Below are positions 35,886 through 40,119 of a stretch of DNA of 64,000 nucleotides, in pieces (within the stretch, counting starts at the first letter, position 1; every line of letters starts with the position of its first letter). Source of the DNA: Streptomyces spororaveus (lineage in GTDB: Bacteria > Actinomycetota > Actinomycetes > Streptomycetales > Streptomycetaceae); NCBI RefSeq assembly GCF_016755875.1, contig NZ_BNED01000003.1, positions 229,136 through 293,135 of the forward strand, read 5' to 3'. The position numbers and the translations under genes are program-made. Under the pieces are notes generated by a model. The model ran no database searches. It saw nothing but the letters and a program-made list of their open reading frames with translations, and was not told the DNA's origin.

Positions 35886-36108
35886 CCTTGCGATAGTCGG
35901 CAGGAAGCCGCATGGCCTGCAGAGACAGCCCCTGAGCCCGCAGGTGCATACCGAAGTCGTCGCTGAGCACCCGGGTGCCCGCCTCCGGCTTGAGCTGGTC
36001 CAGTTCCGCAGCGACGACCAGCGGCACCACCAGGCGGACTTCCTTGGTGCGCACTCCCTCAGCCCTCAGCACCTCGGTCCACTTCACCTCGTCCGGCGGC
36101 CGCCAGTG
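35863..36108 (-). pseudogene. PIN-domain gene fragment A (internal deletion, missing N-terminus)
   Basis: The minus strand reads HWRPPDEVKWTEVLRAEGVR, TKEVRLVVPLVVAAELDQLK, then after a gap VLSDDFGMHLRAQGLSLQAM RLPADYRK. The second half is the end of a PIN domain, with the acidic pair SDDFG. The first half is 96 bp identical to PIN fragment B near 39.9 kb. The true start (YDTNMLVH) is absent and the centre of the domain is deleted. Confidence 0.8.
36013..36108 (-). repeat. 96-bp direct repeat (copy A), PIN-gene sequence
   Basis: Identical, base for base as far as read by eye, to 39838-39933 in the same orientation. The two copies bracket the STAND/two-helix gene pair and the Tn3 fragment, a 3.7-kb interval. 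Confidence 0.85.
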
Positions 36109-36276: not shown

Positions 36277-38934
36277 CTACCCGGCACTTGGGGAGTCCCC
36301 TTCTGCCTTGCCTCTCCAACAGGCGAGGTTGCTCAGGGTGACGAGGGTGAGGGGGTGGTCTTCGCCCAGCACCCGCACCTGGTCGGCGAGCAGCTCGGCG
36401 AGGTCGGCCGCAGCGCCGACCGCATCCCCCGCCTCCCCCCGCCACAAAGCGAGGTTGTTCCGGGTGGCGAGGGTGCGGGGGTGGTCTTCGCCCAGCACCC
36501 GCACGCGGTCTGCGAGCAGCGCGGCTGCGGAGGTGGCGGCGCCGACCACATCTCCCGCATTGCCCCGCCACTGGGCGAGGTTACTTCGGGTGAGGAGGGT
36601 GTCGGGGTGGTCTTCGCCCAGCACCCGCACCTGGTCGGCGAGCAGCTCGGCGAAAGCTGCCGCGGCGCCAGCCGCATCCCCCGCCTCCCCCCGCCACGCA
36701 GCGAGATTGTTCCGGGTGACGAGGGTGTCGGGGTGGTCTTCGCCCAGCACCCGCACGCGGTCGGCGAGCAGCTCGGCGAAAGCTGCCGCGGCGCCAGCCG
36801 CATCCCCCGCCTCCCCCCGCCACGCAGCGAGATTGTTCCGGGTGACGAGGGTGTCGGGGTGGTCTTCGCCCAGCACCCGCACGCGGTCGGCGAGCAGCTC
36901 GGCGAAAGCTGCCGCGGCGCCAGCCGCATCCCCCGCCTCCCCCCGCCACGCAGCGAGATTGTTCCGGGTGACGAGGGTGTCGGGGTGGTCTTCGCCCAGC
37001 ACCCGCACCTGGTCGGCGAGCAGCTCGGCGAAAGCTGCCGCGGCGCCAGCCGCATCCCCCGCCTCCCCCCGCCACGCAGCGAGTTTGTTCCGGGTGGGGA
37101 GGGTGTCGGGGTGGTCTTCGCCCAGCACCCGCACCTGGTCGGCGAGCAGCTCGGCGAAAGCTGCCGCGGCGCCAGCCGCATCCCCCGCCTCCCCCCGCCA
37201 CAAAGCGAGGTTGTACCGGGCGGCGAGGGTGTCGGGGTGGTCGGTGCCGCGGCCGTGTCGGGCGATGTCGGCGAGGTGCCGGAAGTGGTCTCGGGCGGCG
37301 GTCACCTGGCCGGCCTGGCCGTAGCTGTAGCCGGTGCGGAACAGCACTGCATGTGCGTCGGGCCGGTACAGGGCGTCTTCGGCGCAAGTGGCCAGAGCGG
37401 TGGTGTTGGCGCGCAGGGTCTGGGCGAGGGCGGTGTCGCGTTCGATTGCTGGCCAGGCGGCTCTGAGGGCGTCGGCGGCGGTGCGGGCGGTGTGGTCGTA
37501 GTGGTGGGGGGTGAGGGTGTCGCGGGTGGCGCGCTGGATGAGCTGGTGGACGCGGACGGCCTGGTTCGGGGTGGTGGGTGTGTGGTCGATGAGGCTGAGC
37601 CGGTACAGGGCCCGCAGGGCTCCCGTCGCGTCCTCGCGGGTGGCCTGTACTGAGGAGCGCTGCCGTTTGCCCGGCCACCACTTCAGCCGCCGCGCGCGTC
37701 CAGGGTCGGCCTGGGTGCGGTGTGCGGCCAGGTGGGTGAGGGCGGGGGCACTGGTCAGCACGTCGTGGGGGATGCCGTTGGCGTCGAGCATCGCGGCGAG
37801 TTGGAGCATGGGGCGGGCCAGGCCGGCCGGCCGCAAGGTGTCGGCGCGGTCGATGGACAGGGACCAGGCGGCGGCCAGGGGGCGGGCCTGGTCGTCGGGC
37901 AGGCGGTCGGGGGCGGTGTCGGCGAGCGTGGTGGCGCGGTCAGCCAGCAGTGTGCGGTAGGTGGCGATGTCGTCGCCGGAGTCGATGAGGTAGGCGACGG
38001 CCTGGGCGAGGGCCAGGGGCAGGTGTCCGAGATCGCCGGCCAGAGCGGTGAGTTGGTCTGCTGGTTCGACCCGGCCGTGCGTGGCCAGGGATGTGGTGAG
38101 GTAGGTGAGGGCTTCGTCCGTGGTGAACAGGCCGACCTCGACCGTGTGGCGGCCGTCTGCGGCGAGGGCGGCGTCACGGCGGCGGGTGGTGACCAGGGTG
38201 CGGCCGCGGGGGCCGGCGGGCGGCCACAGGCGGTGCAGGTCCGCCGGGTCGGCGACGTCGTCCAGGACGATCAGCCACCGGCACGGTATGGCTCCCGTCT
38301 TGGGGGTGAGCCAGGCCAGGAAGGATTCGGCGGCCTTCTCCGGATCACTGGGATCGGCCCGGCACAACTCGACTCCGGCCTGCGCGTATCCGCTCACGAT
38401 GGCCTCCCTGCTGCTGGCAGTGAGCCAGACCAGGACGTCCAGGCCGCCAGCCTGGCTGCCGTCCTCCCATGCGGTGCGGGCGTAGTCGGCAGCGAGCTGG
38501 GTCTTGCCCACCCCGCCCATACCGGTCAGGACCTGGCCCAGTACAGCGGTGCCGCCGCCGTCGACCGTCGCCCGCAGCCGCTCCGCCTCGGCGCGATCCT
38601 GGAAAGACCGTGCACGGGAAGGGATAACCCCGACCTGGTGCGGCCACGGGGCCGGCTCCCGGGCCGCGCTGGGTTGCACCACGGTCAGCTTCTCGACGCT
38701 CACCTGGTGGATGTAGCCGGTGTTGGCGAGCCCGCCCTCGGACGCGGCCGCATCCCCGGTCCCGGATATCCGTACTGGAGCAGCGGGGGTGCCGTCGGTT
38801 CCCGGTACCGGTCCGCGGTAGCCGCTCACCGCTGTGGCCCCCGACGCGGCCGCAGCGTTCCCGGTATCGGTCACCGCGACGTCAGCGTCGGCGGCGTCGA
38901 TGGGGCCTTGCTGGCTCTTGTCTCCTGCGGTCAC
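36277..38934 (-). CDS. NB-ARC STAND NTPase with near-identical TPR array
   Basis: 885 aa from GTG 38934, chosen for GGGGGAA upstream; an ATG at 39066 gives 929 aa but overlaps the previous gene. In the 929-aa numbering, a linker (50-130) has two copies of a Gly/Ala-rich motif (GNAAAASGATAVSGY; GDAAASEGGLANTGY). The NB-ARC domain follows: P-loop GMGGVGKTQ (182-190), Walker B WLIVLDDVAD (near 264), TLVTTRRRDAAL, the GLPLAL-like LGHLPLALAQA and VRVHQLIQ in the MHD position. The C-terminus is seven to eight 42-residue TPR units. Such proteins are sensor-switches of plant R-protein type, inferred in bacteria to act in immunity or self/non-self recognition. No effector domain is fused; the upstream two-helix membrane protein is the likely partner. 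Confidence 0.88.
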   Translation of the reverse strand: MTAGDKSQQGPIDAADADVAVTDTGNAAAASGATAVSGYRGPVPGTDGTPAAPVRISGTGDAAASEGGLANTGYIHQVSVEKLTVVQPSAAREPAPWPHQVGVIPSRARSFQDRAEAERLRATVDGGGTAVLGQVLTGMGGVGKTQLAADYARTAWEDGSQAGGLDVLVWLTASSREAIVSGYAQAGVELCRADPSDPEKAAESFLAWLTPKTGAIPCRWLIVLDDVADPADLHRLWPPAGPRGRTLVTTRRRDAALAADGRHTVEVGLFTTDEALTYLTTSLATHGRVEPADQLTALAGDLGHLPLALAQAVAYLIDSGDDIATYRTLLADRATTLADTAPDRLPDDQARPLAAAWSLSIDRADTLRPAGLARPMLQLAAMLDANGIPHDVLTSAPALTHLAAHRTQADPGRARRLKWWPGKRQRSSVQATREDATGALRALYRLSLIDHTPTTPNQAVRVHQLIQRATRDTLTPHHYDHTARTAADALRAAWPAIERDTALAQTLRANTTALATCAEDALYRPDAHAVLFRTGYSYGQAGQVTAARDHFRHLADIARHGRGTDHPDTLAARYNLALWRGEAGDAAGAAAAFAELLADQVRVLGEDHPDTLPTRNKLAAWRGEAGDAAGAAAAFAELLADQVRVLGEDHPDTLVTRNNLAAWRGEAGDAAGAAAAFAELLADRVRVLGEDHPDTLVTRNNLAAWRGEAGDAAGAAAAFAELLADRVRVLGEDHPDTLVTRNNLAAWRGEAGDAAGAAAAFAELLADQVRVLGEDHPDTLLTRSNLAQWRGNAGDVVGAATSAAALLADRVRVLGEDHPRTLATRNNLALWRGEAGDAVGAAADLAELLADQVRVLGEDHPLTLVTLSNLACWRGKAEGDSPSAG
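36280..37251 (-). repeat. 126-bp tandem repeat array encoding TPR units
   Basis: Seven full units and one partial unit of 126 bp (42 codons). Units 2-5 (36622-37125) are almost identical in DNA and encode LGEDHPDTLVTRNNLAAWRG and EAGDAAGAAAAFAELLAD, differing only at Gln/Arg before VRV and at Pro/Val. Outer units are more diverged. Synonymous positions are conserved too, so the inner units are recent duplicates and copy number should change easily by unequal recombination. Confidence 0.92.
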
Positions 38935-38980
38935 GCGACCGATTCCCCCGCTTTTTGTGTTCTGACCGGGCTGGGCGCCG

Positions 38981-39334
38981 TCAGGTGTAGTCGATGCCGC
39001 TGACGGCGTTGCTGCCGTCGCCGGTGGCGGTGGCGCCGCCGGTCCTTTCCGCCTGTGCCGAGCCACTGCCCCGGCCCTGCGGGCGCCTGACCCCCGTCAG
39101 CGCTGTTCCACCATCGTCCGCGCGGGCCGGCCCGGTGCGCACGGCCGTATCGTCCGCACGGTTTCCCGGGTGCTGAAACAACGCCCAGACCAGAGCCGCA
39201 ATACCGGCGGCGGCCTGAACGCAGGCTCCGGCCAGCTGTCCCGCATCGGGGCCGTCCAGCAGCCAGACCAATGGCGTCGAGACGACCCCGGCCACCGCCA
39301 GCACTATGACCGTGATCTTCCACCCCTGCGACAT
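38981..39334 (-). CDS. Small two-helix membrane protein upstream of the STAND gene
   Basis: A protein of 117 aa with ribosome binding site GGGGGAG. Two transmembrane helices are seen, about 7-26 (ITVIVLAVAGVVSTPLVWLL) and 33-54 (LAGACVQAAAGIAALVWALF), then a polar, disordered tail. The tail ends GGATATGDGSNAVSGIDYT, a motif that also occurs twice, in diverged form, at the N-terminus of the STAND protein encoded 46 bases downstream. Both genes are probably one transcript. The layout (membrane helices plus a short shared motif) fits an effector that the STAND protein recruits or templates. No known family name was recognised. Confidence 0.7.
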   Translation of the reverse strand: MSQGWKITVIVLAVAGVVSTPLVWLLDGPDAGQLAGACVQAAAGIAALVWALFQHPGNRADDTAVRTGPARADDGGTALTGVRRPQGRGSGSAQAERTGGATATGDGSNAVSGIDYT

Positions 39335-39381: not shown

Positions 39382-39657
39382 TCATATTGCGGCAGGGCAG
39401 TTCGATTCGGAACAGGAAGCGACCCGCAGCATCCTGGTTCCAGCACACCCCAGCGCCCGGGAGGAAAGCAGCTCCGGGCACGGCAGCGTGCACAACTGCA
39501 CCGCAGCGCCCAGCACCGTCTGCGGACGCAGGAACTTCCGCAAGAACGCCACATCGGCCGGGGCCAGAGTGAAATAGCGGATCAGCTCATCCTTGCCGAT
39601 CGCCGGGAACGACCGTAGGCCCTCCAACTCCTCGTCGGAGAACACCCGCGTTGCCAT
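39382..39657 (-). pseudogene. Tn3-family transposase, N-terminal fragment (DUF4158)
   Basis: The first ~60 residues match the N-terminal DUF4158 domain of Tn3-type transposases: ATRVFSDEELEGLRSFPAIG, KDELIRYFTLAPADVAFLRK and VLGAAVQLCTLPCPE. After that the sequence is unrelated and the remaining ~900 residues are missing. No Tn3 inverted repeat was found beside it. Confidence 0.85.
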
Positions 39658-39741
39658 CCGCCCCTCCCAACACCGGACTCACTCGTTCAGCCCAACGAGC
39701 CGACGTCTCAACAGCAACGGTCCAGGTCAGGGGCTACTCCG

Positions 39742-40119
39742 TTGTTTTCTCGGCGAGTACTGCTGGGACCCCAGATACCGGAGGGCCTTCGCGGCCCGCT
39801 CGCCGGCACCAGACTTGTGCCGGTCCAGCTCATCTATGACGACCAGCGGCACCACCAGGCGGACTTCCTTGGTGCGCACTCCCTCAGCCCTCAGCACCTC
39901 GGTCCACTTCACCTCGTCCGGCGGCCGCCAGTGCACCAGCATGTTCGTGTCGTAGACGATCGGAGTGCCAGGACGCGCGGCGTACGAGCGCAGCCAGCCC
40001 AGCTCTTCCTCGGCGCGTTCGAACGCCTCGATCTGCTGCTGGAGCTCGCGGACGAGCGCGCCGTAGAAGCCCGGCGACCCGCCGGACGAGGGCCGTGCCG
40101 CGATCGACCGGCTGCGCAA
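39742..40119 (-). pseudogene. PIN-domain gene fragment B (C-terminus missing)
   Basis: The minus strand gives a helical N-terminus (FYGALVRELQQQIEAFERAE), then the PIN start TPIVYDTNMLVHWRPPDEVK, RAEGVRTKEVRLVVPLVVID and ELDRHKSGAGERAAKALRYL, and stops. The first catalytic Asp (YDTN) and the Glu of DELDRHK are present; the last acidic cluster is lost. Together with fragment A it would make a complete gene, so both derive from copies of one ancestor. The first ~30 codons overlap a plus-strand gene fragment. Confidence 0.8.
39838..39933 (-). repeat. 96-bp direct repeat (copy B), PIN-gene sequence
   Basis: Second copy of the repeat at 36013-36108, in the same orientation. Homologous recombination between the copies would delete the STAND, two-helix and Tn3-fragment genes. 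Confidence 0.85.

Follow-up and report, generated by a model that had tools for sequence, protein, structure and literature searches.

Two adjacent genes of Streptomyces spororaveus, one for a small membrane protein with two transmembrane helices (2TM) and the other for an NLR-type STAND ATPase, carry two copies each of one short repeat and probably form an amyloid-type NLR signalosome, i.e., a sensor-executioner pair joined by homotypic repeats where the 2TM protein takes the place of Bell as the executioner. The genes are found in a stretch of 64,000 nucleotides (nt) of assembly GCF_016755875.1 (contig NZ_BNED01000003.1, positions 229,136-293,135, forward strand); this whole stretch is referred to as the window, and its own numbering is used throughout. 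The 2TM protein is designated P0002, the longest open reading frame (ORF) of the NLR is P0001, and r1 and r2 are the first and second repeat of each protein. The two genes and their two plus two repeats are conserved in homologous loci, the repeats of both partners diverge together across these loci, and on both sides they are also found joined to other heads or bodies.

The gene pair and its shared repeats

P0002 (117 residues; 38981..39334, minus strand, as are all the features of the pair) is formed by two membrane helices, a short hinge and a tail. AlphaFold2 predicts the helices at residues 3-24 (39263..39328) and 31-54 (39173..39244), and the hydropathy peaks at residues 7-23 and 37-53 agree with the two-helix membrane protein that had been proposed in an earlier sequence-only reading of this DNA. 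The tail has two copies of the pattern TGxAxAxxGGxAx[ST]G[IV] flanking an Arg/Gly linker, which were delimited from alignments of the homologues: r1, TGPARADDGGTALTGV, comprises residues 67-82 (39089..39136) and r2, TGGATATGDGSNAVSGI, residues 98-114 (38993..39043). The sequence-only reading had located both ORFs correctly, and the three segments that it quoted were confirmed letter for letter; it had recognized the C-terminal copy in the small protein but missed r1, which is the better match to the NLR.

The longest NLR ORF (39066..36277) starts inside the small gene and is read from the same strand. Judging from the sequence, a GTG at 38934 is a likelier start than 39066; it lies 46 nt past the stop codon of the small gene and is preceded by a G-rich stretch. 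With this start the NLR would span 36277..38934 and its repeats r1, TGNAAAASGATAVSGY (38818..38865), and r2, TGDAAASEGGLANTGY (38713..38760), both delimited by sequence and profile comparison, would form the N-terminus of the protein; hence these two segments are indeed ahead of the NB-ARC domain, as had been noticed before, but they would not belong to an internal linker. The NB-ARC nucleotide-binding domain (38038..38529, P0001 residues 180-343; Pfam PF00931, E 8.5e-11) includes the P-loop GMGGVGKT, and it is followed by a tandem TPR array (36323..37242; TPR_10, E 8.3e-42), the presumed sensor; NB-ARC with a P-loop and C-terminal repeats place the protein among the NLR/STAND (NB-ARC/TPR) proteins. 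Tandem Repeats Finder resolved the array into 7.3 copies of a 126-bp unit with 90% match, which suggests a recent re-duplication in the would-be sensor. The NLR also reaches 346.5 bits with the NCBIfam model NF040586 (FxSxx-COOH system TPR protein; cutoff 300); this name may mislead at such loci, given that the partner here is a 2TM protein.

The likeness between the tail and the NLR was evaluated against P0001 residues 45-150 with composition-preserving shuffles, 2000 for each segment. The r1 copy (residues 66-84 were used) gave a z of 5.2 with none of the shuffles as good, and the whole tail (residues 56-117) a z of 4.4 with 3 shuffles as good. The likeness of the C-terminal segment, on which the earlier claim was built, is weak when taken alone (z 2.3, 63/2000 shuffles as good, for residues 97-117, a segment with two extra residues).

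Conservation and co-divergence of the repeats

A scan of genome contigs yielded 57 loci, almost all from Streptomyces, and others from Streptantibioticus, Embleya and Frankia; two fragments were dropped, and 55 effectors were compared. Two hydrophobic segments are present in 50 of them, and all the aligned effectors have both repeats around an Arg/Gly-rich linker, with a fixed T-G-x-A-x-A pattern in the repeats. The ORF directly downstream carries two repeats in 43/55 loci, one in seven, and no intact one in five; the 43 double-repeat ORFs rest on a pattern, and two of the singles (L074 and L080) were judged by eye. Consequently, the worry raised by the sequence-only reading, that homologous pairs could keep the domains and not share the motif, was not borne out. 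At L031, one of the five loci without an intact motif downstream, the double motif sits in a cut-off ORF, and at L050 the motif-bearing NLR lies beyond a Bell-like gene and is encoded by the opposite strand. A P-loop is present in nearly all of the 50 motif-bearing downstream ORFs; L084 lacks it by pattern, but shows a sub-cutoff NACHT match. In 14 of the 55 loci both effector repeats are approx. four residues shorter. Such joint shortening would follow from a pairing between the two arms of each repeat, and the short class is possibly a single lineage.

Profiles of the effector tail (A3) and of the NLR head (A7, with no effector included) align with each other over 51 columns (E 3.1e-12), and A7 retrieves the 2TM tail of the window itself (E 2.8e-6). 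Both were used in genome searches that scored the best 31-32 first-look candidates per genome, so that the counts are lower bounds: A3 matched at least 50 places in 37/199 Streptomyces-type genomes, and A7 at least 64 places in 37/198. When merged, these are 81 places, 32 of them common to both profiles, that fall into 50 clusters, 30 of which contain two or more neighbouring places. All of the 30 A3 loci that were fetched are effector genes with this type of tail (25 with 2TM heads, four Bell-like and one other), which argues against the ordinary low-complexity linker that had been named beforehand as a possible explanation; several of the remaining A3 places are the NLR gene next door, and weak places were noted in G036, G213 and G226:C57. 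In the class, A3 matched 14 of 296 genomes, with G325 among them; the matches in three of these (G402, G085 and G266; L189, L190, L191 and L194) are chance-like.

Profiles made only of r1 or r2 were run on 7524 ORFs. With such short profiles, most NLR heads escape detection by E-value; therefore, ranks within the locus and the double-repeat profiles were used. At E<=0.01, the r1 profile detected ten NLR ORFs and four others (three Bell-like genes and the cut-off NLR head of L031), and the r2 profile seven non-NLR matches, i.e., six Bell-like genes and one apparent chance ORF; no shuffled ORF matched either profile at E<=0.1, and one per profile did at E<=1. Within its locus the partner ranked first in 26/55 cases and in the top four in 42/55, the five loci in which no partner was found being counted as misses.

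The divergence of the tail correlates with that of the head when the rest of both proteins is taken into account (partial Mantel r 0.36, p 2e-4, n 37), as anticipated by the co-variation check that the earlier reading had put forward; the 37 loci come from the 43 with a double motif, leaving out five with other ATPase bodies and L039, which is cut short. By pairwise score, 38 of the 50 cognate pairs were equalled by no more than 3/300 shuffles. Tail-head likeness across the homologues exceeds chance. An accidental likeness of Gly/Ala-rich linkers would be compatible with the shuffles of the C-terminal segment alone, but r1 was never equalled, each profile retrieves the partner's genes in the genomes, the two profiles match each other, the partial Mantel correlation is positive, the T-G-x-A-x-A pattern is fixed, and the shortening of both repeats is linked. 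Chance or low complexity was rejected on the r1 and r2 profiles, the reciprocal genome searches, the profile-profile E-value and the shuffles, and is considered extremely improbable.

The same repeats on other heads and bodies

Near 2TM loci, the six strongest other matches of the r2 profile correspond to proteins of approx. 168 residues that have a helical head and the same type of tail; the five tails that were aligned are 47-57% identical to that of the window. A profile of the heads of nine such proteins (A4) matched 19 of 41 genomes, and the relatives have quite different C-termini, several of which are echoed (by eye) at the start of the adjacent STAND gene. A head with varied C-termini echoed on a STAND protein fits the description of Bell given in passages of PMC7889193, and the label Bell-like is used here on that ground. 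In L121, L129 and L140, the C-terminal motif of the Bell-like protein, RHIM-like by eye, recurs at the start of an overlapping STAND gene.

In four of the six cases at 2TM loci (L032, L066, L078 and L050) and in all four cases found separately in genomes (L102, L106, L109 and L116), the Bell-like gene precedes a P-loop gene that has a single motif copy (by eye). The former four are islands where one motif type is common to a 2TM gene and to a Bell-like gene accompanied by its own STAND gene; at L050, the 2TM gene is not directly followed by a STAND gene of its own. The same double-repeat tail is borne by a third kind of head, with one likely membrane segment and helices (by eye), in L104 / L148 (2895-3536), where the next ORF is short and has an NLR-type head.

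On the side of the sensor, the 50 partner ATPase bodies fall into six groups with no BLAST link at 1e-10, which have 43, 2, 2, 1, 1 and 1 members. Some of these groups may be distant kin; L060 also just reaches NB-ARC. In Pfam, the body of L051 matches NACHT and that of L043 nSTAND5 just under the cutoff, while no family was matched at E<=0.001 by those of L071 and L080.

Two-helix heads with other tails

A profile of diverse 2TM heads (A8) matched 20/61 Streptomyces-type genomes and 16/246 genomes of the class. Outside the 2TM family of the window, the tails on these heads differ and include GVAAGGD..GNA (L220 and L227) and ITGDxN (L231 and L245), which may be a single type, VIQGHT, RHIM-like by eye (L248 and L249), FQAGRDIN (L242 and L244), and VSGVxGDV (L222 and L250). 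The VIQGHT core is repeated at the N-terminus of the adjacent STAND protein in L248, and a similar segment is present in L249. 2TM proteins with one or two copies of an S-V-A-x-G-G-type motif were also seen in L223, L226, L230 and L233, with no matching ORF directly downstream within the stretch examined.

For these general 2TM pairs, 13 of 26 cognate combinations were equalled by at most 1/100 shuffles, versus 56 of 620 non-cognate combinations; the latter baseline was run since taking the best of several downstream ORFs inflates significance, and it left out the pairs of TG-A-A tails with TG-A-A heads, several of the 56 looking like the same motif type. The 26 pairs were counted after dropping the 2TM family of the window, L217 (degraded), the fusions L221 and L225, L232 (a transporter), L243 (another membrane protein), L234 (no downstream ORF within the stretch examined), and L239 and L241 (frame or edge problems). 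L242, L249 and L250 are outside the 13, yet were equalled by only 5, 5 and 13 of 500 shuffles, respectively. The fusions join the 2TM head directly to NACHT (L221, 1501-3158; Pfam 3.9e-6) or to NB-ARC (L225, 1018-1665; Pfam 1.1e-14). On balance, we lean towards the idea that bacterial NLR signalosomes have, in parallel with Bell, a second major class of amyloid-gated executioner made up of 2TM proteins, in which one head family is either fused to NACHT or NB-ARC or acts in trans through interchangeable tails of about five motif types, some RHIM-like, each copied on the adjacent STAND sensor.

The direct fusions fit equally well with a role of the 2TM protein in bringing the STAND ATPase to the membrane, either as an anchor or as a sensor adaptor, the execution being left to the ATPase or to another protein, and the 2TM protein of the window has no domain known by Pfam to act on membranes. 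This role is nevertheless judged distinctly unlikely: the same tail is borne by Bell-like heads, and passages of PMC7889193 present Bell as a hypothesised membrane-targeting cell-death domain, so that the 2TM head occupies an effector-like slot; moreover, Pfam revealed no separate effector domain in the NLR of the window, and the gene order, effector and then NLR, is that of the Bell-like pairs.

Predicted structure and possible mechanism

In the AlphaFold2 prediction of P0002 each repeat forms three strands (residues 62-65, 70-73 and 77-83 for r1, and 93-96, 101-104 and 109-115 for r2) with a block pLDDT of 80-95. Together with the conservation of the pairing and the presence of the tail on Bell-like domains, this agrees with the effector-NLR pair with a shared motif that had been suggested at the outset. 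P0002 matched no Pfam family at E<=1, in a database that includes SLATT models, and no NCBIfam family at E<=0.1; PADLOC gave a single match of 10 bits (E 0.075). The tail matched no PDB sequence at E<=10, and no Pfam family except for one weak match in 1 of 20 rows. The idea that the tail could be a beta-roll adhesin was supported by no search.

In the proposed mechanism, the NB-ARC/TPR protein would sense a trigger through its re-duplicated TPR array and then oligomerise through NB-ARC, a process that is established for the family. Oligomerisation would cluster the N-terminal double repeat of the NLR into stacked beta rungs, and these would act as the template on which the two repeats in the cytoplasmic C-terminal tail of the 2TM protein adopt the same fold; the clustered 2TM proteins could then open a pore or disrupt the membrane, stopping or killing the cell, probably as a defence against phages or in other conflicts.

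The main rival to this mechanism is that the repeats are a finite beta docking module, which builds a closed NLR-2TM complex of fixed size with no open-ended amyloid templating. In its favour, the tail is predicted by AlphaFold2 to be a folded monomer at high block pLDDT, which is unusual for a tail that stays disordered until seeded; the two repeats per side in 43/55 pairs fit a fixed 2+2 stack; and the NLR repeats stay long where those of the effector are short. We regard such docking as unlikely, since the relatives of the Bell-like heads bear other motifs at the same position, some RHIM-like by eye, the number of copies on the partner heads is either one or two, and parts of PMC7889193 and PMC9815663 state that prion-amyloid behaviour is possible for motifs of the BASS and HET-s types.

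Several results weigh against the amyloid signalosome. With regard to structure, the only PDB match to the predicted model at E<=10 is the HET-s prion amyloid, which is not significant (E 1.6, TM-scores 0.17/0.22); the three VIA rows ranked above HELLF are helix matches, and AlphaFold2 was trained on the PDB. With regard to the pairing, no motif-bearing NLR was found directly downstream of the effector in L041, L046, L054 and G044, the r2 profile matched no NLR ORF among the 7524 at E<=0.01, and 12 of the 50 cognate pairs were equalled by more than 3/300 shuffles, nine of these being of the short class. In the 13 of the 14 short-class loci that have an NLR, the NLR repeats are not shortened in the same way (r1 of L081 is one residue shorter). 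The Mantel control of transmembrane region against head, given tail and body, was also positive (r 0.25, p 0.001); thus part of the tail-head correlation may reflect shared ancestry, as the effect of phylogeny is not completely eliminated. Among the general 2TM pairs, half (13/26) had no match at the threshold, and L238, one of the other 13, matches a spurious-looking ORF. Finally, the NLR had no defence match in PADLOC.

Relation to known systems

The fungal HET-s/HELLF proteins with their neighbouring NLRs and the present pair have in common two short pseudo-repeats with a linker and predicted beta strands in each, located in the C-terminal tail of a protein with a presumed action on membranes, and a copy of the motif on the neighbouring NLR (for the fungal side, in part, passages of PMC7889193). 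In contrast, the repeats here have 16-17 residues and are Gly/Ala-rich, versus approx. 21 in the kin of HET-s (same passages); the tail has no PDB sequence match, the NLR mostly carries two repeats, and the head is 2TM and not HeLo, as it has two helices and no Pfam match.

The closest parallel are the Bell-BASS amyloid NLR signalosomes (Dyrka et al. 2020, as presented in parts of PMC7889193, PMC8086366, PMC12261475 and PMC9815663). Amyloid-coupled effector-NLR pairs were proposed, and partly tested, in filamentous bacteria (passages of PMC7889193 and PMC9815663). As in these systems, adjacent NLR/STAND and small effector genes of filamentous actinobacteria share a motif at the effector C-terminus and the NLR N-terminus that homologous pairs retain, and this type of tail is also found on Bell-like heads, whose relatives have tails of RHIM-like appearance (by eye); for BASS4, motif repeats have been reported on the Bell side (passages of PMC8086366), and the motif described here may be one of the already named BASS1-10. 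The difference is the head of P0002, two membrane helices with no evident relation to Bell, the Bell-like family being a different protein with the same tail. In passages of PMC7889193, accounts of bacterial amyloid signalling centre on Bell heads, which are hypothesised to act on membranes, and CHAT and TIR are named as examples of other heads; Bell is thus not strictly required.

The SLATT 2TM effectors are also membrane proteins with two helices and have been proposed to form pores in conflict systems (passages of PMC7159879), whereas P0002 lacks a Pfam match and bears a repeat tail. Effector-associated domains (EADs) resemble the present repeats in being a homotypic module copied on a core component and an effector, often next door; unlike the two short repeats predicted as beta, they are folded alpha or alpha+beta domains (same passages). 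The FxSxx-COOH system is similar by the NF040586 match of the NLR and differs in the 2TM partner.

Among the titles, beginnings of abstracts and passages covered by our literature search, which included no preprints and few subscription papers, there were no bacterial 2TM effectors with amyloid motifs, STAND fusions or multiple tail types; this is weak evidence of absence. The related pairs suggest that small 2TM membrane proteins are a recurring kind of executioner. A two-helix head of approx. 55 residues with a tail of 2 x 3 predicted strands would make a minimal executioner that laboratory strains allow to be tested easily, and the natural swaps of heads and tails in related genomes are ready-made specificity controls, which make it testable whether amyloid templating, and not simple docking, gates immune cell death in bacteria.

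Flanking sequences and further copies

The gene pair is bracketed by a direct repeat of 139 nt (88% identical copies at 35970-36108 and 39795-39933), which by sequence is part of a PIN-domain gene (PIN_4 at 39730-40119). Beside the pair, at 39385-39657, lies the remnant of a DUF4158 gene, which we take to be the N-terminus of a Tn3-type transposase. Given this remnant and the flanking repeat, the pair may have arrived by a mobile-element event. A second copy of the 2TM gene is present in the same genome (L147, contig C2, 5112-6022), together with a double-motif NLR head in an NLR that is cut short. In G190, the pair is found near both ends of the chromosome (contig C1, 102417 and 8003805), presumably in terminal inverted repeats.

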